34,069 nucleotides of DNA from Sideroxydans sp. (GTDB taxonomy: Bacteria > Pseudomonadota > Gammaproteobacteria > Burkholderiales > Gallionellaceae), in the NCBI GenBank assembly GCA_011620315.1, contig WOZO01000024.1, positions 1-34,069 on the forward strand. Direction: 5' to 3'. The notes under the pieces were generated by a model. That model had not been told where the DNA came from. It made no database searches and saw nothing but the letters and a program-made list of their open reading frames with translations. Positions 2,477 to 33,829 of the stretch are shown here, one piece after another. Every line of letters starts with the position of its first letter. Position 1 is the first letter of the stretch. Made by a program: the position numbers and the translations under genes.

Positions 2477-2490
<14 letters not shown>
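1549..2490 (-). CDS. gluQ: Glutamyl-Q tRNA(Asp) synthetase, probable CTG start
   Basis: GluQRS attaches glutamate to the queuosine base at the wobble position of tRNA(Asp). It is a paralogue of the GluRS catalytic core without an anticodon-binding domain. The frame reads through RFAPSPSGPLHFGS (the HIGH-type ATP motif is HFGS at about 21-24), a zinc-type cysteine cluster YPCCC (101-105) with YPGTC (123-127), and KLSKQ (239-243, the KMSKS motif). The first ATG lies at 2355, after HFGS, so that start would remove the active site. Upstream, between an in-frame TGA and the HFGS codons, there is no ATG, GTG or TTG. A CTG at 2490-2488 gives a typical N-terminus (MSRHKSHYRGRFAP) and a 313-residue product, with a GAGGAAGAAG purine tract just upstream. 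The start overlaps the clpA 3' end by 14 bases. The family is certain; the start codon is inferred. Confidence 0.88.
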
Positions 2491-4738
<2,248 letters not shown>

Positions 4739-6184: not shown

Positions 6185-8981
<2,797 letters not shown>

Positions 8982-9017
8982 CGGGCATATTCCTAGCATG
9001 TGTCGAGTAATGGTCGG

Positions 9018-9049
9018 TTGCTGATCAAATTTGGTCAGCAAGAGCTGAC
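9018..9049. promoter_or_regulatory. Palindrome cluster upstream of pelX, candidate activator site
   Basis: The 24-bp segment 9018-9041 is a palindrome in which all positions pair except one T/G: arms TTGCTGA and TCAGCAA flank TCAAATTTGG. It overlaps a second inverted repeat, GTCAGC (9034-9039) and GCTGAC (9044-9049). The half-site GCTGA therefore occurs three times (9020, 9035 inverted, 9044). No T-tract follows, so it is unlikely to be the rluE terminator. Its centre lies about 107 bp upstream of the start site predicted from the sigma-54 element, a usual distance for an enhancer-binding protein site. Which protein binds is unknown. Confidence 0.5.
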
Positions 9050-9060
9050 GGAATCGCAGG

Positions 9061-9136
9061 GTATTAATTAACCTACTGTTTGGAATGGGCTTTGCCTGTG
9101 CGTATTGCGCTGGCATGGTCGTTGCTCAATTAATAC
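9061..9136. repeat. Spaced inverted repeat bracketing the pel promoter
   Basis: GTATTAATT (9061-9069) and AATTAATAC (9128-9136) are exact reverse complements separated by 58 bp. The right arm lies between the -12 box and the predicted start of transcription. It could be a pair of operator half-sites or a chance AT-rich match. Confidence 0.35.
9111..9126 (+). promoter_or_regulatory. Probable sigma-54 (RpoN) -24/-12 promoter of the pel operon
   Basis: TGGCATG (9111-9117), four bases, then TTGCT (9122-9126) matches the sigma-54 consensus TGGCACG-N4-TTGCW at all but one defined position. The invariant GG and GC dinucleotides have the correct spacing. Initiation would be near 9137, giving a leader of about 107 nt before pelX. 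No comparably good sigma-70 promoter was seen in this intergenic region. Confidence 0.68.
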
Positions 9137-9243
9137 AGAATCACGGGTCGTAAAAAGGCAAAGCGTCGTTCGGTGTTTCTGGCGCGGCTGAATATGCAAT
9201 CCGTAAGAATGAATACACGCGCAGTTGATTTGGAGATTTAAAA

Positions 9244-10158
9244 ATGAATTTTTTGGTAACGGGTGGAGCGGGCTTTATCGGTTCGCATAGTGTGGAGGCA
9301 TTGCTGGCCGACGGGGCGCAAGTCCGGGTGCTGGATAATTTCACTTCGGGGAAGCGTGCCAATCTTGCGGCACATGCCAATCTGCAGATCGTGGACGGCG
9401 ACATCCGCGATGCGGAAGCGGTCGATCATGCGATGGTCGGCATCACGCATGTGCTGCATCTTGCGGCGCAAGTGTCGGTGCCCGCTTCGGTGGCGGATCC
9501 GGTCGGTTCCAGCCAGCACAACCTGCGCGGTTTTCTGAACGTGCTCGATGCTGCGCGCCGCGCCGGTGTGAAACGCTTCGTTTACGCCTCCAGCGCCGCA
9601 GTCTACGGCGCGCCGGAAAGATTGCCGCTGGATGAAAGCTCGCCGGTCGCGCCGCTGTCGCCGTACGGTCTGGAAAAATCCATCAACGATCAATATGCGG
9701 CGCTGTACCGTCAGCTGTACCAACTCTCCTCACTGGGGCTGCGCTATTTCAATGTCTATGGCCCGCGCCAGGATCCGGCCTCGCCCTATGCGGGCGTGAT
9801 CAGCCGTTTTTCCTCCGCGATGACGCGTGGCGATACCTTGCGTGTGTTCGGCGACGGCGAACAGACGCGCGATTTCATCTTCGTGAAGGATGTGGCGCAA
9901 CTCAACAAGCGTGCGTTGATGAGCGATGCGGACGGGGTGTGCAATATCGCGACCGGCCATAGCGTGACGCTGCTGGAGCTGATCGATACGCTGGCGCAAT
10001 GCGCGGGCTGCACGCCGCAGATCCGCCACGAACCGCCCGCCCCGGGCGATATCCGCCATTCCGGCGCGACGCCGCGCAAGATGTTCGAGCAACTCAACCC
10101 GCCCCCCATGACGAAACTGGCCGACGGTCTGAAACAACTCCTAGAAGCATCGGCGTGA
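9244..10158 (+). CDS. pelX: NAD-dependent sugar epimerase, PelX-like
   Basis: An extended short-chain dehydrogenase/reductase of 304 residues. It has the Rossmann motif TGGAGFIGSH (6-15), the YASSAAVYG serine strand (114-122) and the catalytic YxxxK as Y141GLEK145. This fits UDP-hexose 4-epimerases. PelX, known from Pel operons of some pseudomonads, interconverts UDP-GlcNAc and UDP-GalNAc and supplies the GalNAc donor for Pel. The position as first gene of the pel operon supports that role; the substrate itself is inferred. The ATG at 9244 has a GGAG ribosome site at about 9232-9235. The TGA overlaps the GTG start of pelA by 3 bases, so translation is coupled. Confidence 0.85.
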   Translation: MNFLVTGGAGFIGSHSVEALLADGAQVRVLDNFTSGKRANLAAHANLQIVDGDIRDAEAVDHAMVGITHVLHLAAQVSVPASVADPVGSSQHNLRGFLNVLDAARRAGVKRFVYASSAAVYGAPERLPLDESSPVAPLSPYGLEKSINDQYAALYRQLYQLSSLGLRYFNVYGPRQDPASPYAGVISRFSSAMTRGDTLRVFGDGEQTRDFIFVKDVAQLNKRALMSDADGVCNIATGHSVTLLELIDTLAQCAGCTPQIRHEPPAPGDIRHSGATPRKMFEQLNPPPMTKLADGLKQLLEASA

Positions 10159-12968
10159 GCGATTCGATTTCAAAATTCTCGTGCTGTAGATGGATCGTTT
10201 TTCATGTGCTGATGCTGATGTCCGCATTGGCGTTCGCTTCTCAGCCGAGCATCGCCATGTTCTACGGGGCCAACCCGCCCTGGGATGAACTGCATGCTTT
10301 CGATGCGGTCGTGGTGGAGCCGCTGCACGTTCCCGATCCGAAGTTGCACGGCACTGAAAAGTCCGCGCTCTTCGCCTATGTGGCCGTGGGCGAGGTCTCG
10401 CCCGAACGCGGCTATCTGAAAGCGATCCCGGCCGCCTGGAAGCTGGGGCAGAACAGCGACTGGGGCAGCATCGTGCTGGACCAGTCGCAAGCTGGGTGGC
10501 CGGCATTCTTCGCGGAGCGCGTCATCAAGCCGTTGTGGGAGGCGGGCTATCGCGGTTTTTTCCTGGATACGCTCGATTCCTACCTGCTCTACACCAGGAC
10601 AGCTGCGGAAAAAGCCCGGCAGGAAGCGGGGCTGGTCGCGGTGATCTGCGAGTTGAAGAAGCGCTATCCGCAAGCCAAACTGATCTTCAATCGCGGTTTC
10701 GAGATCCTGCCGCAGGTGCATCGGGAGGTCTATGCCGTGGCGGCCGAATCGCTGTTCCAGCGCTGGGATGCCGCGCGGCAGAAGTATGTCGTGGTGCCGC
10801 CGAACGAGCGCGAATGGCTGTTGGGGCAATTGAACCGTATCCATCTGGAATACCGTCTGCCGGTGTTGTCCATCGACTACGTGCCGCCCGGCCAGCGCGA
10901 CCTGGCCCGCGCCACGGCGGCCAAGATTCGCGATCTGGGCTTCATTCCCTGGGTGACCAATCCCGGGCTGGACATGCTCGGCGTGGGCGAGATTGAAGTG
11001 ATGCCGCGAAAGGTGCTGATGATCCACAACACCGCCAATACCGAATACGACCTGATCAATACCAATGGGCAGCATTACGCCACCATGCCGCTGAACTATC
11101 TGGGCTATACCGTCGAGTATCTGGACGCGCGCAGCACCCTGCCTGCAGAGCCGCTGACCGGTCGCTATGCGGGGATCGTCGTCTGGCTGGAGCAGGCGGC
11201 GGGCAGGGAAGGCGCGGCATTGCGAGCCTGGCTGATGCGGCAAAAGAAAGCCGGGGTGCCGTTCGTTATTCTGGGAGATGGTGCGTTCTTGTTCGACAGC
11301 GGTGATGCGGAACAACTGGGCCTGAAATATTCAAAGTCGGCCAATGAGCGCATGCGATTGCATGTCGAGCAACGCGACGCGCTGGTCGGCTTCGAAGTGC
11401 AACCGGCATTCGACCGCGCTGCCTTTTTTTCTTTGCAGGCGCGGGACGCAAACGTACTGTTGAGGCTGGCCAACGAACTCAACGAGACGCAGGACGCAAT
11501 CGCGCTAACCGCATGGGGCGGCTATGCGCTCAATCCGCATGTGCTGGTAGAATTGCCCGCTGTGCCGGGCAACGGCAAGGCGGGGGATACGTCCAGAAAC
11601 ATGCGCTGGGTGGTCAACCCGATAGAGTTTTTGCGGCGCGCGCTGCAATTGCCGGACATGCCGGTGCCGGATGTGACCACGGAAAGCGGACGGCGCAAGT
11701 TGATGGTGCACATGGATGGCGACGGATTCGCCAACAAGGGAGAATTTCCCGGCGCGCCCTACGGTGCGGAAGTGTTGCTTAAGCAGATACTGAAGAAATA
11801 TTCCCTGCCGATGACGATGTCCGTCATTCAGGGCGAGATCGCGCCCGACGGTCTGTATCCGGCGCAGTCCGCCGCACTGGAAGGCATCGCGCGCGAGATA
11901 TTTGCCCTGCCTCAGGTAGAGATTGCCAGTCATTCTTTTTCGCACCCGTTCCAGTGGAGAAAAGCGGTGGCGAATCCGGAGGAAGAGGGGTATCACCTCA
12001 AATTAAAGAATTACGAATTCGATCTGCAGCAGGAGATCAGCGGATCGATCTCCTATATCGAAACGAGACTGGCGCCGCCCGGAAAAAAAGTAAAAGTGTT
12101 CTTGTGGACCGGCGACTGCAATGTCGGCAGCGATGCGCTGGAGATCGCGGCGCAGGCCGGTGTCGCGAGCATGAACGGCGGCGAAACCACCATCACGCGC
12201 AGTTTCCCCACGTTGACGCTGGTCGCCCCGCTGGGCGTGACCAAGGGCGGGGAATTCCAGGTCTATGCGCCCAACCAGAACGAGAACGTCTACACCAATG
12301 ACTGGCGCGGCCCTTTCTACGGTTACGAACGCGTCATTGAGACCTTCGAGATGACCGGTGCCCCTTATCGTTTGAAGCCGGTCGATATATATTTCCATAC
12401 CTATTCCGCCAGCAAACCGGCCTCCCTCAAAGCACTGGACCGCGTGTTCAGGTGGGCGCTGGCGCAGCTGCTCACGCCGGTGCATATCGCCGATTACGTG
12501 CATCAAGTGCGGGACTTCAACCGTATGGTGGTGGCGCGCACGCGCGACGGCTGGCGGGTGCGCGGTGCCGAGCATTTGCGCGAACTGCGCGCGCCGCTGT
12601 CGCTCGGCCGGCCGGTGATCGAGGCCGCCGTGGCAGGCTTCAACCACTACGAAAACCAGCAATATCTGCACCTCGGCGACAGCGAAGCCAACATCCGTTT
12701 CCGGTCCGCTGCGACTGCCGCACCCTATCTGGTTTCCGCCAATGCGCGGATCGTGCATGCCGCCTCCGGGCAGACGGCGGCCGGCTATACATTCGATCTG
12801 TCCTTGAGCGGACAAGTGCCGCTGCAATTCGATCTGTCCCTTGGCAACCGTTGCAGCGTACTCGCCGAAGGGCGGACGATGCGGCCCGCCTCGACACATA
12901 ACGGCATCAGTCATTTCACCACGCCTAAGCATGTCATCGACGAGCTACGAATTCACTGCCCGCGCTAA
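10155..12968 (+). CDS. pelA: Pel polysaccharide hydrolase/deacetylase PelA
   Basis: PelA is the periplasmic two-function enzyme of Pel export: an N-terminal endo-alpha-1,4-N-acetylgalactosaminidase-type domain and a C-terminal CE4-like deacetylase. The product is 937 residues (P. aeruginosa PelA is about 948). A Sec signal (about 12-29, ending ALAFAS) is followed by the hydrolase domain (about 32-280) with FFLDTLDS (D138) and AVAAESLF (E198) as likely catalytic acids. A Rossmann-like middle region follows (about 285-470), then the deacetylase with MDGDG (D521, D523) and SHSFSH (H593, H597) forming the metal site. The start is the GTG at 10155, overlapping the pelX stop; longer frames run into pelX. 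The 3' end overlaps pelB by 38 bases. Confidence 0.95.
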   Translation: MSDSISKFSCCRWIVFHVLMLMSALAFASQPSIAMFYGANPPWDELHAFDAVVVEPLHVPDPKLHGTEKSALFAYVAVGEVSPERGYLKAIPAAWKLGQNSDWGSIVLDQSQAGWPAFFAERVIKPLWEAGYRGFFLDTLDSYLLYTRTAAEKARQEAGLVAVICELKKRYPQAKLIFNRGFEILPQVHREVYAVAAESLFQRWDAARQKYVVVPPNEREWLLGQLNRIHLEYRLPVLSIDYVPPGQRDLARATAAKIRDLGFIPWVTNPGLDMLGVGEIEVMPRKVLMIHNTANTEYDLINTNGQHYATMPLNYLGYTVEYLDARSTLPAEPLTGRYAGIVVWLEQAAGREGAALRAWLMRQKKAGVPFVILGDGAFLFDSGDAEQLGLKYSKSANERMRLHVEQRDALVGFEVQPAFDRAAFFSLQARDANVLLRLANELNETQDAIALTAWGGYALNPHVLVELPAVPGNGKAGDTSRNMRWVVNPIEFLRRALQLPDMPVPDVTTESGRRKLMVHMDGDGFANKGEFPGAPYGAEVLLKQILKKYSLPMTMSVIQGEIAPDGLYPAQSAALEGIAREIFALPQVEIASHSFSHPFQWRKAVANPEEEGYHLKLKNYEFDLQQEISGSISYIETRLAPPGKKVKVFLWTGDCNVGSDALEIAAQAGVASMNGGETTITRSFPTLTLVAPLGVTKGGEFQVYAPNQNENVYTNDWRGPFYGYERVIETFEMTGAPYRLKPVDIYFHTYSASKPASLKALDRVFRWALAQLLTPVHIADYVHQVRDFNRMVVARTRDGWRVRGAEHLRELRAPLSLGRPVIEAAVAGFNHYENQQYLHLGDSEANIRFRSAATAAPYLVSANARIVHAASGQTAAGYTFDLSLSGQVPLQFDLSLGNRCSVLAEGRTMRPASTHNGISHFTTPKHVIDELRIHCPR

Positions 12969-15900
12969 GCAGACGCGCCCGCGGCCGAAGCTGATGTCCG
13001 CGTGGACACTGGCCGGGTTCGCCGTGATGGTGATGATCCCGCTGGTGATGATCTTTCCCAAGCAGGATCTGCTGCAGCAGGCGTCGCAGCAAAGGCTGGG
13101 CGACACGCTGACCGTCAACTATCTGAGCAACCTGCTGAAGGCCGATCCCGGCAGTCTGGAGTTGCGTTTGCTGCTGGCCGAGCACCGTATATTCCTGCGC
13201 GAGTCCGACGGCATACAAGAATTGCTCGACCCGGTGATTCACAGCAAATCCGCCGCCTGGCGGGCAAAGGGGATGCTGGCCGAATATAAATTTCTGACCG
13301 GCCGCTATTTGTCGAGCGCACCCGCTTCCCCGCAACGCGCAGAACTGCGCCGTCGCCGCATCGATGTGCTGCTGCAGTTGCACCGCTTGCAGTGGCCGTT
13401 GCCGACTTTGGTCTATCTGGCCGGGCAGGCGGACCAATTGGGGGAGCGCGGCGTCAGCACCCTGCTGTATCAGCGCATAGCCGATTCTTCCGCGCGCATG
13501 TCCGCGGACAATTTTTCCGACATTGCCTATCAGGTGCTGGGTGAAGGCGATTACGAACTGTCGGCGCATCTGTATTTCATTGCGCGTCACAAGGCCGGCA
13601 CACTCGCCAAACAGCGCGAATATTTTCTGGCTGGTGTGAATGCGCTGATCTCGGGTAACTTGCTGAGCAAGGCGATGCAGGGTATCGACCGCCATGTGGG
13701 CGCGCTGGAAAACGATTCCGAAACGCTGTATGCCTTGATCAAGGCCGCGCGCGCGGCCAACGACCAGCCGCGTGCCGTGCGCTATGCAAAACATCTGTTG
13801 AATATCGCGTGGCTGAGCTTGCCGGTCGTGGCCTGGTTGCAGCAGATGGATCTGGGCTGGCTCGGCATCGCCAACGCGGATGCGGCTGACGACATGCCGC
13901 AGGCCAAGCCGTCCAAAATGCGTCGCTACGTCAAGAAAGAGTATGAGCTGGCCTACCAGGTGTTCATCGAAAACCGCAATCTGGAAGAGGCCTACCGGGT
14001 TGCCGCCGCCGCTGTGCGCCAGTCGCCGTCCGAGGCGGTTTGGCATCTGCGTCTGGCGCGGGTCGCCGAATGGACCGGACGCCCGAAAGAATCCTTGCGC
14101 GAATGGCGCTGGACGCTGCGCGATCACGAAACAATGGAAGCGCTCGGCGGCGTGCTGCGACTGGCACCGTCCCTGAATGAATACGATGTGCTGCTCGACG
14201 CCTGGAAGCGGGTCGCGACCAAGCAGGAGATGAATGCCGCGCAATGGGAGAACATGGCCGCCTTGTTTGAGTTGAGCGGACGCCAGCGCGAAGGGATACG
14301 TTTCTTCGAACAGCGCTACACCATGGACCATGTGCCACTGCAATTGGAGATCGCGGCGCGTCTGGCCGAACGCAGCGGGGACGATGATCGGGCTGCCGCC
14401 TTGTACGAGCGCTTGTTGGCGCTGCATGGTGCCAACACCGCGTGGCACATGAAACTCGCCAATCTGTATTTGCGCAAAGGGCAATACCGCAAAGCGTATG
14501 ACCTGTTGCAAGCCAACCGCCAGCACGTGAAGGAAAACGAGATCGGCTACTGGAAATTGCTGGCCATCCTGGCCTGGCAGTTGCAGCAGGATGCCGACGC
14601 CAAAGAGAGTTTTCAGCGTCTGGCCAAAGCGGGCAGTCTGGCGCGCGAAGATTTCAGCCGCCTGATCTATTTGCTGGGCGATTCGCGGCCCGCTGAAAGA
14701 GCGGCGCTCGCCGAGTTGGCTTATCGCCGTTACGGCGAGCGCGACATGCTGCTGCTGGCGCTGGACTTGGATGCGGCGCGGGGCGATATGCCGGCGCAAA
14801 AACGCCTGTTCGAACTGGCCGCCATGGACCGCCGTCTGGACGTGTCGGACAACGCGCGTTTCTATCAATTGCGCGCGCAATACCGGCTGGCGCAAGGCGA
14901 ATTTACGGCGGCGCGCAAGGATTTTCATCAGGCAGTCGGCATCGCGCCTTACGCATCCGCCGATATGGAAAGCCGCCTCTGGTTTTTGATCAACAGCCAT
15001 GACCTGGCCGGTTTGCGCGCCATGCTGGCGCAGCTCATCGCGCGCGGCGATCAAAACAATCCGGCCTACTGGGGCGTGCTGGCCGCTGTCTATCAGGCGC
15101 TGGACCAACCGGCGCGCGCGGTCGCTTATTACACCCGACAATTCAGGCAGGGCGGACAGGATTTTCTGTGGCTGATGGGCTATGCCGATGCGCTGGAGCA
15201 GGTGCGGCAGGCGGGTATGGCGGCCCGCGTGCGGCGCCATGCATGGTTGCAGGTACGCGAACGCGTTTCCGGCAAGGCACCGGGGCCGCTGTATTCGCGG
15301 GAGATGCTGGCTGCTGCGCAGTTGGCCATGCAAAACGATCCCGGCGATGCCGCTTTCACGCTGGTGCGCGCGGTGCTGCGTCAGGACAGATTGCTCAAAC
15401 AGGACGAAGTGAAGCGGCGCAAGATCGACGGCATGTCTTTGGCGATGAGCCTCTCGCTCAACGCCTACGACGAGGAGACCGAGCGCAGAGTGAGCGAGCT
15501 GGTATTGGGCTGGACGGTTTCCCAAGAGCAATCCGCCAATGCCAAGGCTTGGCTGTGGCGTCGCTATGCGCGATCACTCAACCGTCCGTTGTGGGCGGAA
15601 GCCTCTATCGCCGCGGCGGAGCAAGATACGGAACGACTCGCCGCATCGCTGGATGAGCAGGGGGAGGGCCTGGCCCTGCCGACGCGCCACGATGCGGCGA
15701 ATGCGGTAGGCCGGTACGGCGAGGCGCAATCCATCATCTACCGCGGGCTGGCGGACAATCCGCATAGCGACGAGATCCATCAGCGTTTTTCCGAAGACAT
15801 GTTGGTCGCCGCGAGCGAACTCAATGTCGGGTGGCGCGACGAAAAGGTCGGCGGTTTGCATCGCATGGTCCGTCAAGTCAGCGTCGAGATGCCGCTTGCA

Positions 15901-16689
15901 CGCGCGCTGCGCATGGGGGCCGAATACCGCAAGGCACAACAAAGCAACGACGAGCCGTCGGCCTTCGGCGCTGCGCCGCCGGCGGGGCGCGTGACGGGGC
16001 TGTGGCTCAAATATCGCGGTGCGACGGGGGACACCGGGTTTGCGCTGCGGCGCAGGAACGAATATGCCGCCGCGACGGAATCGCATCTGCTCCACGCGAT
16101 GAAGATCGCGCCGCGAATGAACCTGCAACTGGGGGCGGAATTCAATGCCGCCGCCACCGAGTCCAACGTGCTGCAACTGTTCGGCATGCGCAATCAGCTT
16201 GCCGCCGGAGTGCGCTACACGTTCAGCAAGCGCGAATATCTGCAAGTGGAATCGGCATGGGCAAATTACCGCACGCAGGACGGGGCGGACATGGGCAGCG
16301 GCAAGCGCTTGGCCTGGGAGCTTGGCTACCGGGCGCGCAGCGCCTATCCGGATCTGACTGTGCGCGTGAACGGTACCCACACCCGCTTTGCGCAAAGTGC
16401 GATCCCGTCACTGGCACTGCCCGGTGATGCGAACGTGTATGGCGTGTGCGGCGGATTTGGCGAAGGCGTGCGCTACGCCTACACGCGGGCGTGGCGGCCT
16501 TATGCGGATACCTGCGTAACCCGCAATGCCGTCACCGGGCAGGGCTATAATGCGACGCTTGGTTTGGCGGGCGCAGTCATCGGTCTCGATCGGCTTTCTT
16601 TCACATTGCGGCAGGAGCGCGGCGGGGCGAATCTCATCAACGGCTCGAGCCACGAATTCGCGTTGAACTATCGCCGGTATTTCGATTGA
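12931..16689 (+). CDS. pelB: Pel outer-membrane export porin PelB with TPR repeats
   Basis: PelB carries Pel across the periplasm and outer membrane: long TPR arrays bind PelA, and a C-terminal beta-barrel forms the pore with PelC. The 1252-residue product (about 1190 in P. aeruginosa) has a basic N-terminus, one membrane helix (about 24-42), helical TPR-type sequence through most of the chain, and alternating polar/hydrophobic strands from about 960 to the aromatic-rich end (NYRRYFD). Two cysteines near 1175 and 1197 in the barrel could pair. The ATG at 12931 (MSSTSYEF) was chosen; an in-frame ATG at 12841 would add 30 residues inside pelA. It overlaps pelA by 38 bases, which suggests coupled translation. 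Confidence 0.93.
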   Translation: MSSTSYEFTARAKQTRPRPKLMSAWTLAGFAVMVMIPLVMIFPKQDLLQQASQQRLGDTLTVNYLSNLLKADPGSLELRLLLAEHRIFLRESDGIQELLDPVIHSKSAAWRAKGMLAEYKFLTGRYLSSAPASPQRAELRRRRIDVLLQLHRLQWPLPTLVYLAGQADQLGERGVSTLLYQRIADSSARMSADNFSDIAYQVLGEGDYELSAHLYFIARHKAGTLAKQREYFLAGVNALISGNLLSKAMQGIDRHVGALENDSETLYALIKAARAANDQPRAVRYAKHLLNIAWLSLPVVAWLQQMDLGWLGIANADAADDMPQAKPSKMRRYVKKEYELAYQVFIENRNLEEAYRVAAAAVRQSPSEAVWHLRLARVAEWTGRPKESLREWRWTLRDHETMEALGGVLRLAPSLNEYDVLLDAWKRVATKQEMNAAQWENMAALFELSGRQREGIRFFEQRYTMDHVPLQLEIAARLAERSGDDDRAAALYERLLALHGANTAWHMKLANLYLRKGQYRKAYDLLQANRQHVKENEIGYWKLLAILAWQLQQDADAKESFQRLAKAGSLAREDFSRLIYLLGDSRPAERAALAELAYRRYGERDMLLLALDLDAARGDMPAQKRLFELAAMDRRLDVSDNARFYQLRAQYRLAQGEFTAARKDFHQAVGIAPYASADMESRLWFLINSHDLAGLRAMLAQLIARGDQNNPAYWGVLAAVYQALDQPARAVAYYTRQFRQGGQDFLWLMGYADALEQVRQAGMAARVRRHAWLQVRERVSGKAPGPLYSREMLAAAQLAMQNDPGDAAFTLVRAVLRQDRLLKQDEVKRRKIDGMSLAMSLSLNAYDEETERRVSELVLGWTVSQEQSANAKAWLWRRYARSLNRPLWAEASIAAAEQDTERLAASLDEQGEGLALPTRHDAANAVGRYGEAQSIIYRGLADNPHSDEIHQRFSEDMLVAASELNVGWRDEKVGGLHRMVRQVSVEMPLARALRMGAEYRKAQQSNDEPSAFGAAPPAGRVTGLWLKYRGATGDTGFALRRRNEYAAATESHLLHAMKIAPRMNLQLGAEFNAAATESNVLQLFGMRNQLAAGVRYTFSKREYLQVESAWANYRTQDGADMGSGKRLAWELGYRARSAYPDLTVRVNGTHTRFAQSAIPSLALPGDANVYGVCGGFGEGVRYAYTRAWRPYADTCVTRNAVTGQGYNATLGLAGAVIGLDRLSFTLRQERGGANLINGSSHEFALNYRRYFD

Positions 16690-16728
16690 ACGATGATTTC
16701 TATTCGCAACTTTGATCAGGGGGAAAAA

Positions 16729-17256
16729 ATGAAAATATGCAAATCAGGCATCCTGCTCGCACTGTCCATGCTTACCTCTTGCGCGGTGCTGGACCAATCG
16801 ACCGCCACGGCACCGCTGGCGCGCAATGCAAAATGGGCATTGCTGCCCATCGTCAATCACACCGAGGTGCCGCAGGCTGGATTGCGCGCGGAAGCGATCA
16901 CCGAAGTGTTGTTGCGCACGGGCGGCGTCAACAACCTGCAGCGTTATCCGGCGCAGATCAACCAGGACAGCCTGTTTGAACCGGCGGAACGCAAAGTGGT
17001 GGAAGACGCGCTGGTGTGGGCGCGCGATCAGGGCGTGCGCTATGCGGTGACCGGTGCCGTGGAAGAGTGGCATTACAAAGTCGGTATCGACGGCGAGCCC
17101 GCAGTCGGCATGACCATGCAGATTATCGACCTCAAGGATGGCGCTCGCGTGGTGTGGAGTTCGGCGGCCAGCAAGAGCGGCTGGAGTCGCGAAGCGTTGA
17201 GCGCGGTCGCGCAGAACCTGATCAAGGGGATGTTGTCCGAGGCACCGCTAGAGTAA
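16729..17256 (+). CDS. pelC: Pel outer-membrane lipoprotein PelC
   Basis: PelC is a lipoprotein that forms a ring at the inner face of the outer membrane and funnels the cationic Pel polymer to PelB. The product is 175 residues (172 in P. aeruginosa). It has a lipoprotein signal ending in the lipobox LTSC (Cys18), then a compact alpha/beta domain with KWALLPIVNHTEVPQAG near the start and an aspartate-containing MQIIDLKDGARVVWS strand. The ATG at 16729 is preceded by an excellent GGGGGAAAA site (16719-16727). The alternative ATG at 16693 would put 12 residues before the signal. It lies 39 bases after pelB and 6 bases before pelD. Confidence 0.94.
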   Translation: MKICKSGILLALSMLTSCAVLDQSTATAPLARNAKWALLPIVNHTEVPQAGLRAEAITEVLLRTGGVNNLQRYPAQINQDSLFEPAERKVVEDALVWARDQGVRYAVTGAVEEWHYKVGIDGEPAVGMTMQIIDLKDGARVVWSSAASKSGWSREALSAVAQNLIKGMLSEAPLE

Positions 17257-17262
17257 TCATCC

Positions 17263-18600
17263 GTGAGCAACAGCCGCGATAACTTAATCGAACGCTTCCG
17301 TCGGGTGGTGGCACCGTTGCGCCAGCATCGTCTGGTGTGGCTGGAAACCGTGTTCATCACGCTGTGCGCGGTCGCGCTCGGCATCTTCTTCCAGCACGAC
17401 AACCCGTTCCAGGTCGGCGGCGAGTTTCCGTGGATATGGCTGGCACCGGTATTGCTTGCATTGCGCTACGGTGTGGCGCCGGGCTTTGTGTCGTCGCTGC
17501 TGCTGATCGCCGTATGGCAATTGATGGATTACCTGTCGGAGACGCATGAGGTTTTTCCCGAGCAGTTCTTTTTGGGCGGCCTGATCCTAGTGCTGGTGTG
17601 CGGCGAGTTCAGCGCGGCGTGGAGCACGCGTTTGCGCCGCGCGGAAGAGACCAACCAGTATTTGGACGAGCGCCTGGGCCGCATCACTTTGCGCCATCTG
17701 CTGCTGCGCCTTTCGCACGACCGCATGGAGCAGGAGATACTCACCAAGCCGATCACCCTGCGCGACGCGCTGGGCGGCCTGCGTCAACTGACCGTGGCGC
17801 AAAGCGACGACCGCCTGCCCGCGGCGGGGCCGTTGGTGCAGTTGTTGACGCAATACTGCCAGTTGGAATCGGCGGCGATCTTTGTGCCAAAGGAAGGCGG
17901 CGGCTATGCGCGCGTCAGCGCGGTGGGCGAACCCCCTGATTTGTCGGCTGACGATCCCCTGCTGTGCTATGCGCTGGAGCAAAAAACCTTGTCCCACCTG
18001 CAGATCGCAAGCGTGGCGGAAGGCGCATTGGCATCCCCTTATCTGGTGGTGGCACCTATCCTGACCAGCGAAAAGACCATGCTGGGTGTGCTCGCCATCG
18101 AACATATGCCGTTCCTGGCGCTGAACGCGGAGAATCTGCAGATGCTGTCGGTGATGCTGGGTTACTACGCGGATTGCGTGAATGATGCCGGGAGCACGCG
18201 CCAGTTCAAGGCGGTGCTGCCCACCGCACCCGCCGATTTCGCGGCGGAGTTCTCGCGCCTGCTGCACTTGCAACGCGCCTTCGGCATCAACAGCTATATC
18301 GTCGCCCTGCCTTTCGACAATGATGAACACGGCCGGCAGGCGGTCGCCAATTTGACCCGTATCCGGCGCGGGCTGGATGTCGCCTGGCAAGTCAATGTCG
18401 GAGACCGTATCTGGACGGTGAACCTGATGCCGCTGGCGAACGGGGCGGCGGTGGAGGGCTATTTGCTGCGCATCGAGAGCATGCTGCAGGACTACATCCA
18501 GATCGGACTGGAGGAATGGCGGCTGACGCCGATCCGCATCGGGCTGGATGAAGAAGATCCGCTGGCGTCCTTGAAAAACGTCCTGATGGCGAAGGCATGA
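17263..18600 (+). CDS. pelD: c-di-GMP receptor PelD
   Basis: PelD is the inner-membrane c-di-GMP sensor that activates Pel synthesis. The 445-residue protein (about 455 in P. aeruginosa) has membrane helices in roughly 25-120, a coiled linker, a GAF domain (about 155-310) and a degenerate GGDEF domain (about 315-430) lacking the GGDEF catalytic motif. The ligand site RxxD is present as R369-G-L-D372, and R403 sits where a second binding arginine is expected, so c-di-GMP control should be retained. The start is the GTG at 17263, six bases after the pelC stop. The stop overlaps the pelE start (ATGA). Confidence 0.95.
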   Translation: MSNSRDNLIERFRRVVAPLRQHRLVWLETVFITLCAVALGIFFQHDNPFQVGGEFPWIWLAPVLLALRYGVAPGFVSSLLLIAVWQLMDYLSETHEVFPEQFFLGGLILVLVCGEFSAAWSTRLRRAEETNQYLDERLGRITLRHLLLRLSHDRMEQEILTKPITLRDALGGLRQLTVAQSDDRLPAAGPLVQLLTQYCQLESAAIFVPKEGGGYARVSAVGEPPDLSADDPLLCYALEQKTLSHLQIASVAEGALASPYLVVAPILTSEKTMLGVLAIEHMPFLALNAENLQMLSVMLGYYADCVNDAGSTRQFKAVLPTAPADFAAEFSRLLHLQRAFGINSYIVALPFDNDEHGRQAVANLTRIRRGLDVAWQVNVGDRIWTVNLMPLANGAAVEGYLLRIESMLQDYIQIGLEEWRLTPIRIGLDEEDPLASLKNVLMAKA

Positions 18601-19646
18601 ACAAAGTTCTGTTAGTGGCACTGGCGCTGGTATTGGCGCTGGTACTGGAAATATCCGCACTGGCACTGCTGTGGCCGGGCGGCACCCAAGATCAAGTGCT
18701 GCTCGGCTTCCTGATGCAGCACGCGGCGGCCAGTGTGCTGTGGGTCGGCGGCGGCTGGTATTTCATGCCGAAGAAATTTCGCCATCCCCGTTGGCCGATG
18801 TTGCTGCTGTTGTTCAACGTCGCCTTCTTCATGCCGGTGCTGGGCATGATCGGCATTTTTGTGGCGGTGTGGATCGCCGCCTATCGCCGCCGCGAGAAGA
18901 TATTGCATCCGTTCGGCAAGCTGGTCCTGCCGGAGTTCGTCCTGTCGTTGCGCGAGCCGGAGATGAAATTCAGCCAGGGCGAGATCAAATCCCGTCTGGC
19001 GCACGCGTCCATTCCGACCGCGCGGCGCTTGCAATCGCTGCTTGCCCTGCAGGGTATTCCGGCGCGCGTTTCCAGCCCGTTGCTGCAGGGCATGCTGGGC
19101 GATTCGGCGGACGATATCCGGCTGGTCGCGTACGGCCTGCTCGACAGCCGCGAAAAAAAGATCACCGCGCAGATCCACCGCGAACTGATCAATCTGAAGG
19201 GCGCGGCGGGCAAGGAGATGCGGCTGATCGCATACAAGCAGCTGGCCGAACTGTATTGGGAACTGGTCTATGCCGGATTGGCGCAGGGCGATTTGCGTAT
19301 CCACTCGCTGAACCAGGCCATGACTTACGCGGATGAGGCTTTAAAGATCGCGGAACGGGACACGGGCATGCTGTTTCTCAAGGGACGCATTCTGCACGAA
19401 TTGAAAAAACAGGAAGAGGCGCAGCAGATGCTGCGGCTGGCGATGGCATATGGACTGCCGGAATTTCGCGCCTTGCCCTACGTCGTCGAGATCGCATTCG
19501 ACCGGGGCGATTACGCCACCGTGCAGCGCGAACTGGCGCGCATCTCCGCCTCGCAGATCACGCCGATGATGAAAAATTCGATCAACTTCTGGGTGCCCAA
19601 GCCGGAAGAATCCTTGCCGGTCCTATCGAAAGAATACGCAATATGA
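18597..19646 (+). CDS. pelE: Pel inner-membrane protein PelE
   Basis: PelE is an inner-membrane protein with a cytoplasmic TPR region. In the Pel synthase complex it links PelD and PelG and helps recruit PelF. The 349-residue product (about 330 in P. aeruginosa) has hydrophobic segments at about 4-26, 34-56 and 67-95, then a soluble helical region in which EALKIAERDTGMLFLKGRIL and the neighbouring text look TPR-like. Both ends use ATGA overlaps, with pelD upstream and pelF downstream, which is typical of a tightly coupled operon. Identity rests mainly on position, size and architecture, because PelE is poorly conserved. Confidence 0.92.
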   Translation: MNKVLLVALALVLALVLEISALALLWPGGTQDQVLLGFLMQHAAASVLWVGGGWYFMPKKFRHPRWPMLLLLFNVAFFMPVLGMIGIFVAVWIAAYRRREKILHPFGKLVLPEFVLSLREPEMKFSQGEIKSRLAHASIPTARRLQSLLALQGIPARVSSPLLQGMLGDSADDIRLVAYGLLDSREKKITAQIHRELINLKGAAGKEMRLIAYKQLAELYWELVYAGLAQGDLRIHSLNQAMTYADEALKIAERDTGMLFLKGRILHELKKQEEAQQMLRLAMAYGLPEFRALPYVVEIAFDRGDYATVQRELARISASQITPMMKNSINFWVPKPEESLPVLSKEYAI

Positions 19647-21163
19647 ATTTCCCCCGCGCCGAAAGCGCCGACATCGGCCTGCTGCTGGAAGGCACCTTCC
19701 CCTATGTTTCGGGCGGGGTGTCGAGCTGGGTCAACCAGATCATTCGCGGCTTCCCGCATTACAAGTTCGCGCTGGTATTCATCGGCAGCCAGCCCGAGGA
19801 TTACGGCGACATCAAATATGCGCTGCCGGACAACGTGGTGCATCTGGAAGTCCATTACCTGAACAGCAAGCAGGAAATGCCAGCGGTGCTGCCGATCAAG
19901 GGCGATGCCAAGGTTTTCGCCAACGTGCGCCGCATGCATGAATGCTTCCGTTTCCCCGCCACGCACAAGGACGGTCTGGAGACCTTCCGCAAACTCATTC
20001 CCGAGATGCGCGCAGGCGGCGGGGCGGGGCTGGATACTTTTTTGTACAGCGAGGAATCCTGGGCGTTCGTCAAAGAAAAATACCAGCAGCATTGCAGCGA
20101 CCCTTCCTTCGTCGATTACTTCTGGACCGTGCGTTCCATGCATACTCCGGTGTGGATGCTGGCCGAAATCGCGCGCAACTTCATCCCGGTGCGCGCGTTC
20201 CACACCGTTTCCACGGGTTACGCCGGTCTGCTCGGTGCCTTGCTCAAGGAACGCACCGGTTGTCCGCTGATCCTGTCCGAGCACGGTATCTACACCAAGG
20301 AACGCAAGATCGATCTGTTCCAGGCGCAGTGGGTGCGCGACAACCGCAACGTGTTCCAGCGCGACCCGACCGAGATCAGCTATTTCCGCCAGCTGTGGAT
20401 ACGCTTCTTCCAGACGCTGGGCACGCGCTGCTACGACAGTGCGGACCGCATCGTGGCGCTGTTCGAGGCCAACCGTTTGCGCCAGGTGGAAGACGGTGCC
20501 GTGGCCGAGCGCACCTGCAACATCCCCAACGGCGTCAACGTGCCGCGCTTCGCCGCCTTGCGCGCGCTGCGTCCCGCTTCGCCGCCGCCCGTGCTGTGCC
20601 TGATCGGGCGCGTGGTGCCGATCAAGGACATCAAGACCTACATCCGCGCCATGCGCACCATCGTCAACCGCATGCCGCAAGCGGAAGGCTGGATCGCCGG
20701 GCCGGAAGACGAGGATCCGGATTACGTCGCCGAATGCCGCGATCTGGTCGACGGTCTGGGGCTGAACGACAACGTGAAATTCCTCGGCTTCCAGCAGATG
20801 ACGGAGTTGCTGCCCAAGGTCGGGCTGGGCGTGCTCAGCTCGATCAGCGAAGGTTTGCCGCTGGTGCTGCTGGAAGGATTCGCCGCCGGCGTGCCCGCTG
20901 TCAGTACCGACGTCGGCTCCTGCCACCAGTTGATCTACGGACTGGACGAGGCGGATCGGGCGCTGGGCGCGGCCGGGCGCATCGTCGGCATCGCCGATCC
21001 GCAGGCGCTGGCGGAAGCCGCGCTGGAACTGCTGGGCGACGAAGCCGCCTGGCGTGCCGCCAGCGAAGCGGGTATCAAGCGCGTCGAGACTTATTACACG
21101 CAGGAACGCATGTTCGACAGCTATCGCGCAATCTATGACGAGGCCTTGTCATGGCGGGCATAG
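19643..21163 (+). CDS. pelF: Pel glycosyltransferase PelF (GT4 family)
   Basis: PelF is the cytosolic GT-B fold, GT4-family transferase that polymerises Pel from UDP-activated N-acetylhexosamine. The product is 506 residues (507 in P. aeruginosa). Visible features are the N-terminal GGVSSWV loop (24-30), HGIY (214-217), the nucleotide-sugar domain beginning GRVVPIKDIKTYI (322-334) and the EX7E pair E403/E411 in SEGLPLVLLEGFAAGVP. There is no signal peptide or membrane helix, as expected. It starts at an ATGA overlap with pelE, and its last 13 bases overlap pelG. The adjacent epimerase gene could provide its UDP-GalNAc. Confidence 0.96.
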   Translation: MNFPRAESADIGLLLEGTFPYVSGGVSSWVNQIIRGFPHYKFALVFIGSQPEDYGDIKYALPDNVVHLEVHYLNSKQEMPAVLPIKGDAKVFANVRRMHECFRFPATHKDGLETFRKLIPEMRAGGGAGLDTFLYSEESWAFVKEKYQQHCSDPSFVDYFWTVRSMHTPVWMLAEIARNFIPVRAFHTVSTGYAGLLGALLKERTGCPLILSEHGIYTKERKIDLFQAQWVRDNRNVFQRDPTEISYFRQLWIRFFQTLGTRCYDSADRIVALFEANRLRQVEDGAVAERTCNIPNGVNVPRFAALRALRPASPPPVLCLIGRVVPIKDIKTYIRAMRTIVNRMPQAEGWIAGPEDEDPDYVAECRDLVDGLGLNDNVKFLGFQQMTELLPKVGLGVLSSISEGLPLVLLEGFAAGVPAVSTDVGSCHQLIYGLDEADRALGAAGRIVGIADPQALAEAALELLGDEAAWRAASEAGIKRVETYYTQERMFDSYRAIYDEALSWRA

Positions 21164-22524
21164 GTTTCGAGCTGCGCAAATTACTGGAGAAAGACAGCTA
21201 CTTCGGCCTGTTCCAGGCGTATGCCTACGCGGGCATCATCAGCTCGGGGCCGTGGGTGCTGTCCATCATCGGCATCCTGTTCGTCGGTTTTCTCAGTCTG
21301 GGCGTGGTGTATCCGCAGGCGGCCATTGTGCAGTTCCAGGTGTCGGTGACCTATCTCATCATGAGTTCGCTGATCCTCACCGGCTTCATTCAGCTCGGCT
21401 TCACCCGCTTCATCGCCGACAGTCTGTTCAATAAACAAGACAAGCTGGTGTTGCCGAATTTCGCCAGCGTGCTGCTGGTGGTGACCGGCATCAGCGGACT
21501 GGCCGGCATGCTGGCGATCTATCTGTTCTTCCACGGCATGAGCGTGACCTACCGCATGCTGATGCTGTCCGGCTTCGTCATTCTGAGCGCGATCTGGGTG
21601 GCGACGATCTTTCTGTCCGGCATGAAGCAATACAAACAGATCGTGCTCATGTTCGCCGTCGGCTATACGGTCACCGTGCTCGGCGCATTGCTGCTGCGCA
21701 CGGAAGGTATGGAAGGCTTGCTGCTCGGTTTCGTGGTCGGGCATCTGGTGCTGCTGATGGGGATGGTGGCGCTGATCCTGCGCGTTTTTCCGCTGATCGA
21801 CCAGACCTTTTCTTTCGACTTTATGCGCCCCGGCGCGATGTACAGCAGCCTGATCTGGTCGGGATTCCTGTACAACTTCGCCGTGTGGGCCGACAAACTG
21901 ATCTTCTGGTTCTATCCGGATACCAGTCAGGCCATCGTCGGACCGCTGCGCGCCTCGCTGATCTACGACTTTCCGATCTTTCTCGCCTATCTGGCGATCA
22001 TTCCCGGTATGGCGGTGTTTCTGGTGCGTATCGAGACCGACTTCGTCGAGTATTACGACAAATTCTACGAGGCCGTGCGCGAAGGCGGTTCGCTCGACCA
22101 CATCATGAACATGCGCGACAACATGCTGTTCACCGTGCGCCAGGGGCTGTTCGAGATCGTCAAGATCCAGGCCATCGCAGTGCTGCTCGTGTTTGTGTTG
22201 GGCGAAAAGCTGCTCACATGGCTGGGCATTTCCACCCTGTATTTGCCGCTGCTGTATGTGGACGTGGTGGCGGCGGGTTTGCAGGTGGTGTTGCTCGGCG
22301 TGCTGAATATCTTCTTTTATCTCGACAAGCGCCGCATCGTGGTATTCCTGTGCACGATATTCCTTATTTCGAATATCGCCCTGACCTCGCTCAGTCTCTA
22401 TCTGGGGGCGAGCTTTTATGGCTACGGCTTTGCCTTGTCGCTGTTGATCACCGTGCTGGCAGGCATGCATCTGCTCTCGCGCAAGCTCGAATTGCTGGAG
22501 TACGAAACCTTTATGTTGCAGTAA
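21151..22524 (+). CDS. pelG: Pel inner-membrane transporter PelG (Wzx-like)
   Basis: PelG is a polytopic inner-membrane protein of the MOP/Wzx-like group that moves the growing Pel chain across the membrane in complex with PelD and PelE. The 457-residue product (456 in P. aeruginosa) is almost entirely hydrophobic, with about twelve predicted helices. It opens with the conserved GIGFELRKLLEKDSYFGLFQ and contains FWFYPDTSQ and YYDKFYEAVREGGSL. The ATG at 21151 overlaps the pelF 3' end by 13 bases. It is the last pel gene. No convincing hairpin-plus-T-tract terminator follows; only weak inverted repeats (GAAAAC/GTTTTC at 22562-22577) were seen. Confidence 0.96.
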   Translation: MAGIGFELRKLLEKDSYFGLFQAYAYAGIISSGPWVLSIIGILFVGFLSLGVVYPQAAIVQFQVSVTYLIMSSLILTGFIQLGFTRFIADSLFNKQDKLVLPNFASVLLVVTGISGLAGMLAIYLFFHGMSVTYRMLMLSGFVILSAIWVATIFLSGMKQYKQIVLMFAVGYTVTVLGALLLRTEGMEGLLLGFVVGHLVLLMGMVALILRVFPLIDQTFSFDFMRPGAMYSSLIWSGFLYNFAVWADKLIFWFYPDTSQAIVGPLRASLIYDFPIFLAYLAIIPGMAVFLVRIETDFVEYYDKFYEAVREGGSLDHIMNMRDNMLFTVRQGLFEIVKIQAIAVLLVFVLGEKLLTWLGISTLYLPLLYVDVVAAGLQVVLLGVLNIFFYLDKRRIVVFLCTIFLISNIALTSLSLYLGASFYGYGFALSLLITVLAGMHLLSRKLELLEYETFMLQ

Positions 22525-25327: not shown

Positions 25328-25330
25328 GTG

Positions 25331-25693
25331 ATGCGCCGCACCGTACAGTGGCTGTTACTGTCCGGTCTGCTGCTGTGCCTGCCATTCGCGCAGGCACGCG
25401 ACCAGCAAGTTCATCCGCTCGCAACCGTCTCCGTCGTGCAACTGCCGCCGGAGGCGCGCGACACGCTGCAACTCATTCAGCGCGGCGGCCCGTTCCCCTA
25501 TGCGCGTGACGGCATCACTTTCAAGAATCGCGAACGCATCCTGCCGCCGCAACAGATCGGTTATTACCGCGAATACACTGTGAGGACGCCGGGCGTCAGC
25601 CATCGCGGTGCGCGCCGCATCGTGTGCGGTGTGGTGCCAGAGTGCTATTACAGTGCCGACCATTACCGCAGTTTCCAACGCATCAAGGAGTGA
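25331..25693 (+). CDS. Secreted guanyl-specific ribonuclease, RNase N1/T1/Sa family
   Basis: A 120-residue protein with a Sec signal peptide (about 1-22, ending FAQA) and a microbial N1/T1-type ribonuclease domain resembling Streptomyces RNase Sa. The triad is readable: E81 in YYREYTVRTPG, R96 in RGARRIV and H111 in SADHYRSF, with nearly the same spacing as in RNase Sa. Cys99 and Cys105 could form a disulfide. The ATG at 25331 was chosen; the overlapping GTG at 25328 would add one residue. It lies three bases after aspS and two bases before a barstar-like inhibitor gene, so it is very probably an export-targeted RNase with its cytosolic antidote. Whether it attacks rivals or scavenges RNA is unknown. 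Confidence 0.9.
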   Translation: MRRTVQWLLLSGLLLCLPFAQARDQQVHPLATVSVVQLPPEARDTLQLIQRGGPFPYARDGITFKNRERILPPQQIGYYREYTVRTPGVSHRGARRIVCGVVPECYYSADHYRSFQRIKE

Positions 25694-32732: not shown

Positions 32733-33128
32733 ATGACTAATGTACAAACAGCAGTAACACAAGGCCGCCCAGACCGAGGCGCAGTCTCAAAGATGCTGAT
32801 GCAGTTATTTGAGCATTGGGCGATCAATACGGAAGATCAGCTCGATATGCTTGGCTTGGCCAGAGACAACCGGGCGGCACTTGCGCGGTATCGCAAAGGT
32901 TCGCCTATATCTGCAAGCCGTGACGCAAATGAACGTGCTGGGCACTTATTGGCGATCCACAAAAACTTGCGCCTACTGTTTCCTCATAATCGCGATCTTG
33001 CGTACCGCTGGATGAGCACGAGAAATAGAGCGTTTGAGGGGCGCACACCAGTCGATGTAGTCAGGGATTATGGCTTCGCTGGGCTTTTGATGGTTCGCAG
33101 CTATCTGGATAGAATGCGCGGGCAATAA
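32733..33128 (+). CDS. Xre/MbcA/ParS-type antitoxin
   Basis: A 131-residue antitoxin of the Xre-RES group. The N-terminal two-thirds is a helical region with an Xre-like helix-turn-helix (about 25-65, [20 protein letters not shown]). The C-terminal part is the toxin-binding domain with [34 protein letters not shown], the strongest family signature (DUF2384). Such proteins neutralise the RES toxin and repress their own operon; the inverted repeat in the promoter is the likely operator. The ATG at 32733 has GGAGG at about 32723-32727. Its stop overlaps the toxin start by one base. Confidence 0.92.
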
Positions 33129-33829
33129 TGGACGCAATCTTTACCGAGCTTAGGCTTGCAGATACTCATAGTGATCTGTATCGCAATATCGTATCGCTAC
33201 GCAGTCAGGAAGACTTGTACGATGATCTAAGCAACGACCCGAGTGATTGGCGTCAAGCAATCGAGTTGGAGCTTCAAACTCAGCCCGCCACCTATCTCTC
33301 ACACACCCCCATTATCCATCGTCCATTTGAGGAGGCAGCTTGGGACGAGGCGATTGGCTTTCCATTTAGAGAATGGTCACGCAGTCGTTATTCAGACGGC
33401 TCATTTGGTGTGTGGTATGGCTCAGATTCAATCGATACAACCATTCATGAGACGGTATATCACTGGCGTAATAGCCTATTGGCTGATGCCGGATTTACCG
33501 CCGCTGGAATAAAAATAGAACGTCGCGTGCATCTTGTACGATGCGATGCTGCACTGATTGATCTACGCGGCTCTGTCACCCAGTATCCAATGCTGGTCAG
33601 CGCCAATGACTACACAATTACGCAACAGATTGGTGGAAGATTGCATCGAGAAGGTCATCCTGGGCTAGTAACGGTATCAGCACGCTGCTCAGGAGATGTG
33701 TACGCGGTCTTGAATCCTGCTGTGCTGTCTAACCCGCGATCTAATTGTTACCTCACATACACCACCACAGACAAAGGCGTGGATGTAGAACGAACCCCAG
33801 GTGAATTGCTGCTTTCAATTCCCGAATAA
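33128..33829 (+). CDS. RES-domain toxin (NAD+-degrading type)
   Basis: A 233-residue RES-domain protein. Characterised RES toxins degrade intracellular NAD+ and halt growth, and are held in check by the Xre partner. The family residues are likely R87 (RSRYSDGSFGVWYG), E108 (IDTTIHETVYHW) and S184 (VTVSARCSGD), in the expected order. The ATG at 33128 overlaps the antitoxin stop (TAATG), so the pair is translationally coupled. Base composition is lower in GC than the genes to the left, consistent with acquisition by transfer. The C-terminus is intact, so the toxin is probably functional. Confidence 0.9.
   Translation: MDAIFTELRLADTHSDLYRNIVSLRSQEDLYDDLSNDPSDWRQAIELELQTQPATYLSHTPIIHRPFEEAAWDEAIGFPFREWSRSRYSDGSFGVWYGSDSIDTTIHETVYHWRNSLLADAGFTAAGIKIERRVHLVRCDAALIDLRGSVTQYPMLVSANDYTITQQIGGRLHREGHPGLVTVSARCSGDVYAVLNPAVLSNPRSNCYLTYTTTDKGVDVERTPGELLLSIPE

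Follow-up and report, generated by a model that had tools for sequence, protein, structure and literature searches.

How is the pel exopolysaccharide operon at this locus switched on? Pel is widespread, and the regulation that we found described is that of Pseudomonas aeruginosa, where FleQ controls pel independently of RpoN (excerpts of PMC5552954). A preliminary description of the DNA analysed here, a stretch of 34,069 nucleotides (the window), had set against this system a near-consensus sigma-54 promoter in front of pel, and the excerpts support the contrast: by Pfam (PelA, B, D, F, G) the biosynthetic operon is the same, but here a conserved -24/-12 promoter precedes it. If this reading is true, pel would be silent without an activator, and the decision to build a matrix would therefore rest on one enhancer-binding protein (EBP) and its signal. 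None of the papers found by searching the open-licence PMC literature reports an RpoN-dependent pel promoter in its title or abstract opening, and a sigma-54 pel promoter does not appear in excerpts of PMC8657755, PMC6211767 and PMC7112194.

We are rather confident that sigma-54, together with an EBP on a second, upstream element, drives pelX-pelABCDEFG. According to this proposal, sigma-54 RNA polymerase would transcribe the operon from 9111-9126 with a start near 9137, and the EBP would dock on helically phased GTC half-sites at 9002-9037 and remodel the closed complex by ATP hydrolysis. It is from the sequences that we infer a function of both elements, an EBP as the ligand of the upstream one and the position of the start.

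Gene context and promoter site

The features on which the proposal is built are the following:

9002-9037, + strand: candidate upstream activating sequence of phased GTC half-sites, conserved in nine loci
9111-9126, + strand: predicted sigma-54 promoter (-24/-12), TGGCATG-N4-TTGCT, an exact match, found in 9 of 11 same-genus loci
9137-9243, + strand: predicted start of transcription at 9137, placed from the -12 position at 12 bases past the GC, with a 5' leader of 107 bases
9232-9235, + strand: likely ribosome binding site GGAG, from sequence
9244-10158, + strand: pelX, NAD-dependent epimerase (PF01370), first gene of the operon, with its ATG at 9244
10170-12968, + strand: pelA (PF03537, GH114; tblastn to relatives)
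12841-16689, + strand: pelB (PF24604 PelB barrel, TPR repeats), start uncertain
16693-17256, + strand: pelC, named by position; no Pfam match, same place conserved in G087, G046 and G100
17263-18600, + strand: pelD (PF16963, PelD_GGDEF)
18597-19646, + strand: pelE, named by position; no Pfam match, same place conserved in G046 and G100
19643-21163, + strand: pelF (PF11997, glycosyltransferase domains)
21151-22524, + strand: pelG (PF16933, PelG)

For pelA, the longest open reading frame begins at 9999, but matches in relatives begin near 10170. The promoter site lies, as described before, between an rluE-like gene (PseudoU_synth_2) upstream and pelX and the genes following it downstream.

The site itself, TGGCATGGTCGTTGCT, also stands as first read: its GG (9112-9113) and GC (9124-9125) elements are correctly spaced, and in the form TGGCATG-N4-TTGCT (consensus TGGCAYGN4TTGCW) it is the sole match without mismatch to TGGCAYGNNNNTTGCW in the 34-kb window. 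With up to two mismatches the window holds 14 matches against 16.2 expected; since this count is not above expectation, the weaker matches carry no meaning. A second weak site, TGGAATGGGCTTTGCC at 9081-9096 (two mismatches), was set aside, as it falls outside every conserved alignment block. When the 262-bp intergenic region (8982-9243, both strands) was shuffled 5,000 times with dinucleotides preserved, ten shuffles equalled the score of the site, 11/12, and none reached 12. By itself this rarity is suggestive only, because a reader inspects many promoters, and we regard the conservation described below as the stronger evidence for the site.

A crude scan of 8900-9300 gave no sigma-70-like site, with 0.5 expected by chance. 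The preliminary statement that the sigma-54 site is the only strong promoter signal between rluE and pelX agrees with this result, but falls short of proof, the scan being crude and the chance expectation just 0.5.

In the whole genome to which the window belongs (2.95 Mb) there are five exact sigma-54 matches, compared with one for the pattern read backwards. The other four are G000:C171:6250-6265 (- strand), G000:C21:22684 (- strand) and 27306 (+ strand), and G000:C218:15220 (- strand). The site on C171 is near nifA, and the one on C218 is apparently located within an open reading frame. A scan for phased GTC half-sites flagged none of these four.

Conservation among pelX loci

PelX orthologues were sought in 100 genomes of the family and in GTDB contigs, and 20 distinct pelX-like loci with 450 bp upstream were compared, 11 of the same genus and 9 from outside it; they came from 23 stretches of sequence, of which duplicates were counted once and one contained no pelX. 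PelX of the ten further same-genus loci is 66-90% identical to that of the window. Nine of the 11 same-genus loci have TGGCAY[GA]N4TTGCT upstream: the present one, G087, G095, G069, G081, G093, G105, G106 and BP4.bin64 (the same as G103, one locus, already included in the model R1 described below). In these carriers the site is found 71-133 bp before the pelX start, as placed from the PelX alignment. The preliminary description would have taken a lack of conservation of the -24/-12 bases in close relatives to refute its proposal, but these bases are kept in all but two of the same-genus loci. Among the nine loci from outside the genus (45-67% identity) no near-consensus site was found within the 450 bp.

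The two same-genus loci without the site are special cases: G075 has an orphan pelX without a pel operon, and G046 a divergent pel operon. The orphan gene (G075:C30, L050 2790-3692) is 82% identical to pelX of the window and stands alone, 15.5 kb of sequence containing no further pel gene; PelG is absent from this genome, and the sigma-54 site from the 450 bp upstream of the orphan. The pel operon of G046 occupies the same place as that of the window, with PelA, PelB and PelG at 54%, 37% and 64% identity. In this rluE-aspS locus (G046:C8, L155 2727-4508), an extra gene for a lipoprotein-like product of 593 aa is inserted between rluE and pelX. As to the operon as a whole, PelG was detected in 10 of the 34 genus genomes: eight with the promoter, G046 without it, and G100, which is unreadable because the contig is cut inside pelA. 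The ninth promoter carrier is G087, whose operon is broken by a contig end inside pelD. In G093 (C98:5999-7349) the PelG match is divided into two neighbouring parts (1-177 and 185-457), as would be expected of a split gene or an assembly error.

The alignment comprised seven of the nine loci, all but G093 and G106. Within 9111-9126, 11 of the 16 columns are invariant, the highest value of all 16-column windows in the seven-sequence alignment, and the top window starts exactly at 9111. Outside both elements 11 of 232 columns are invariant (Fisher p 6e-10 versus 9111-9126, columns taken as independent), and the seven intergenic regions as wholes are barely above shuffled sequence (0.59-0.68 versus 0.60-0.62). 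Judged by these alignments, conservation of the promoter is more than mere relatedness. The gene neighbourhood is less constant: rluE precedes pelX in the present genome, G087 and G046, but the 5.8 kb (G106) and 6 kb (BP4) preceding pelX did not reveal it. As this adjacency is not universal, promoter and operon stay together across different neighbourhoods. The sigma-54 promoter proposed for pel is thus supported by its presence in nine of 11 loci, and it is very probably real and functional.

Just past the predicted start, some 27 bp downstream of the -24 G, a AGTCAATTAAA block is conserved in G069, G081, G105 and BP4 (L010, L011, L047 and L053) and degenerate in the window. This block could be the site of a second regulator.

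The upstream GTC element

The element at 9002-9037 (GTCGAGTAATGGTCGGTTGCTGATCAAATTTGGTCA, 36 bp) had been missed by the preliminary description and is a new lead. Its GTC half-sites begin at 9002, 9013 and 9034, and a degenerate third one (GAT) at 9023. Across the nine loci the half-sites are positioned at 0, 11, 21-22 and 32-33, i.e. about one helical turn apart; the spacing pattern used for this measurement was taken beforehand from the alignment. All four GTC triplets are intact in G095, G069, G081, G105 and BP4, three are intact in the present genome and G087, and G093 and G106 have three plus GAC as the fourth. Between the first GTC and the GG of the -24 element we measured 110 bp in five loci, including that of the window, and 109, 101, 98 and 98 bp in the others, so that in the last three the element is about one helical turn nearer to the -24 element. 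With a hold-out matrix built from five loci (the present one, G087, G105 and G106 left out), the element of the window ranked first in the window with 19.1 bits, compared with 10.0 bits for the next match.

EBP sites usually sit at such a distance upstream, with helical phasing. We therefore consider the GTC element a candidate EBP binding site; being a defined 36-bp sequence, it makes the EBP of pel directly findable.

Further copies of the element

The nine loci served to train R1, a model of the GTC element based on sequence alone, which was then run on the 34 genus and 158 family genomes. At E<=0.01 it matched 9 of the 158 family genomes, exactly the nine training carriers; recovery of these loci is no independent test, as R1 was trained on them. 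Two further copies were found at places outside the training set, in two of these carriers, G069 (E 1.1e-6) and G081 (E 1.7e-5). Each is followed, 110-111 bp on, by a sigma-54 site (TGGCATGGTCATTGCT or TGGCACGTTCATTGCT) and precedes a gene for a LuxR/CsgD-like response regulator. Beyond this regulator, the G069 locus encodes a PEP-CTERM protein, an undecaprenyl-phosphate glucose phosphotransferase and exosortase B with EpsI; by eye, the G081 locus has the same kinds of genes. A weak R1 match in G095 (E 0.05) lies 112 bp before TGGCACAGATACTGCT, which is followed by a gene with an Ig-like domain. At E<=1, nothing besides the pel copy was found in the present genome, G087, G093 and G105, and the pel-negative genomes gave weak matches only, with E values of 0.06 or worse.

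That the GTC element also precedes an exosortase-B locus suggests a wiring of different matrix systems to one switch. Quite possibly, although we would put this forward as a tentative model, several exopolysaccharide systems of a group of environmental bacteria have come to share a single RpoN-dependent all-or-none switch through a mobile cassette of phased GTC enhancer and sigma-54 promoter. These systems would be Pel and an exosortase-B/PEP-CTERM locus with a CsgD/VpsT-like regulator at its head. A resident EBP would then operate the switch, from a site unlike the NtrC, NifA, PilR, FleQ and PrsR sites that we tried.

Candidate activators

RpoN is encoded in the genome, as are seven EBPs: two NifA, NtrC, PilR, an AtoC/NtrC-like protein (C141), one that we take to be AcoR-like, and a PrsR-like response regulator (C205) adjoining a secretin and an ATPase. 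None of the 30 open reading frames of the window that were compared with Pfam encodes an enhancer-binding regulator; ClpA (2477-4738) cross-matches PF00158 via its AAA+ domain. Four EBPs were counted in G087 (99% complete) and eight in G069 (a single contig), the present genome being 94% complete. The EBPs common to these three genomes are NifA, NtrC, PilR and the PrsR-like regulator of the C205 type. In the EBP census, 58 of 60 places were read (two of G105 left out); 57 of these were classed by script and one by eye, as AcoR-like.

Direct RpoN dependence had been taken to mean that a dedicated EBP switches on the Pel pathway. This part of the preliminary description was not supported: the present genome, G087 and G069 have no EBP family in common that is restricted to pel carriers. 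The C205 type occurs in 30 of the 34 genus genomes, and among nine loci checked, pel-negative genomes were also found to have PilR (G057, G102) and NtrC (G060), so that nothing points to a dedicated regulator. The EBP of pel is probably a resident regulator that has been recruited to the operon. One would expect the same element at further targets of such a regulator; that none was found in the present genome, G087, G093 and G105 is a puzzle.

By elimination, the C205 regulator weakly leads the candidates; as the activator of pel it is a tentative choice, less likely than not. PrsR (TIGR02915) is its top family, with 350.8 bits, below the cut-off of 502.6; the highest score of the seven EBPs for this family is 386.8 bits (C141), and none is above the cut-off. 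In PEP-CTERM genes, a sigma-54 motif plus an upstream motif have been tied to PrsR (Haft 2006, PMC1569441, in excerpts), and Aquincola PepA is a further case of a PEP-CTERM/PrsK/PrsR promoter (excerpts of PMC9850573). These promoters resemble the one in front of pel in combining a conserved upstream motif with a sigma-54 motif in connection with exopolysaccharide; further points of likeness are the best NCBIfam match of C205, PrsR, and the two further GTC copies at exosortase-B loci. The upstream motifs differ, however: motif 1 of Haft, derived from a TTTACA motif, is about 63 nt from motif 2 (PMC1569441, in excerpts), whereas the pel element consists of phased GTC without TTTACA, its last half-site ending about 75 nt from the -24 element. 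TTTACA is absent, in both orientations, from the nine pel upstream regions, and an element of the PrsR/PEP-CTERM type was rejected on these grounds.

An activator missed by the assemblies or by our search is possible, if on the doubtful side. For NtrC and NifA, taken together, the case is a poor one. The consensus sites of these regulators are GCAC-N5-8-GTGC and TGT-N10-ACA, and that of FleQ is GTCA-N6-TGAC. The NtrC-type site was found in none of the nine regions, and the NifA-type site in two of them (G093, G106) and not in that of the window. The C141 protein was rejected, as its sole close orthologue (93%) is encoded in G037, a genome without PelG. Likewise rejected, as a common regulator, was the LuxR-type gene that follows the further copies; it has no match in the present genome or in G087 (E<=1e-20).

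Activation by PilR would link Pel to type IV pili via PilS-PilR. PilR is encoded together with a PilS partner (PF25323) and was found in seven of the nine carriers, the other two being 62% and 73% complete. P. aeruginosa PilR binds tandem TGTC half-sites, and in four species the pilA promoter combines a sigma-54 site with GTCA/TGAC half-sites 10-11 bp apart, at a distance similar to that of the half-sites in front of pel. In Azoarcus, pilAB is under PilR/sigma-54 control (excerpts of PMC3262810). The arrangement of the half-sites nevertheless speaks against this regulator, since the pilA type is an inverted TGAC-N7-GTCA and the pel type a direct GTC repeat. A pilA-type matrix derived from the four species missed the pel element, which reached a local score of 3.3 at best and ranked about 345th of 68,106, and TGAC-N7-GTCA, the pilA-type upstream site of the genus, occurs in none of the nine pel upstream regions. 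Control through a pilA-type site is thus not borne out, and PilR is an unlikely activator of pel.

Alternative modes of control

The sigma-54 promoter could also be real and the ligand of the GTC element be no EBP but a co-regulator of another kind, such as a c-di-GMP-responsive protein or one of the LuxR type, with the EBP acting from another site or from solution. That the element fits none of the EBP consensus sequences tried, and is confined to nine genomes when a PrsR-like EBP is present in 30 of 34, would be in line with such a division of labour, and the pair BerA and BerB in Burkholderia provides a precedent for two-tier control (excerpts of PMC5552954). In Burkholderia cenocepacia, according to the same excerpts, exopolysaccharide genes (Bep; BerB/RpoN/c-di-GMP) are under the control of RpoN and an EBP, with a near-consensus site upstream of the controlled gene, as proposed here for pel; there, however, the sigma-54 promoter belongs to the regulator gene berA, whereas in the present case it immediately precedes the biosynthetic operon. 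An orthologue of BerB was not identified in the present analysis. The position of the GTC element (about 75-110 bp before the -24 element) and its helical phasing are those typical of an EBP site, and the LuxR-type product, unmatched in the present genome and in G087, is therefore unlikely to be the common binder. We judge a co-regulator of this kind to be improbable and prefer an EBP on the GTC element.

More improbable still is a sigma-70 promoter that escaped detection and is under FleQ-like c-di-GMP control, the sigma-54 site being minor. FleQ-dependent, RpoN-independent control is the mode described for P. aeruginosa (excerpts of PMC5552954), and divergent relatives such as G046 do have pel without the sigma-54 site. 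Against this stand the lack of a sigma-70-like site in 8900-9300 and the -24/-12 bases kept within otherwise saturated intergenic DNA. In addition, the FleQ-type site is absent from all nine regions, and no FleQ family is among the best 25 NCBIfam matches for each of the seven EBPs of the genome. A mere chance match, in keeping with two-mismatch matches being no commoner than in shuffles, is very unlikely given the conservation, with the exact site kept in nine loci, a second element at near-fixed distance, and the pair of elements recurring at other loci.

Other features of the window

The gene directly after aspS, at 25328-25693, encodes a small ribonuclease (PF00545 family). The only transcription-factor-like domain detected among the 30 open reading frames compared with Pfam is that of an Xre-like antitoxin (32733-33128; PF09722). 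It is followed by a RES-domain gene (PF08808), and the two together (32733-33829) resemble a RES-Xre toxin-antitoxin pair.
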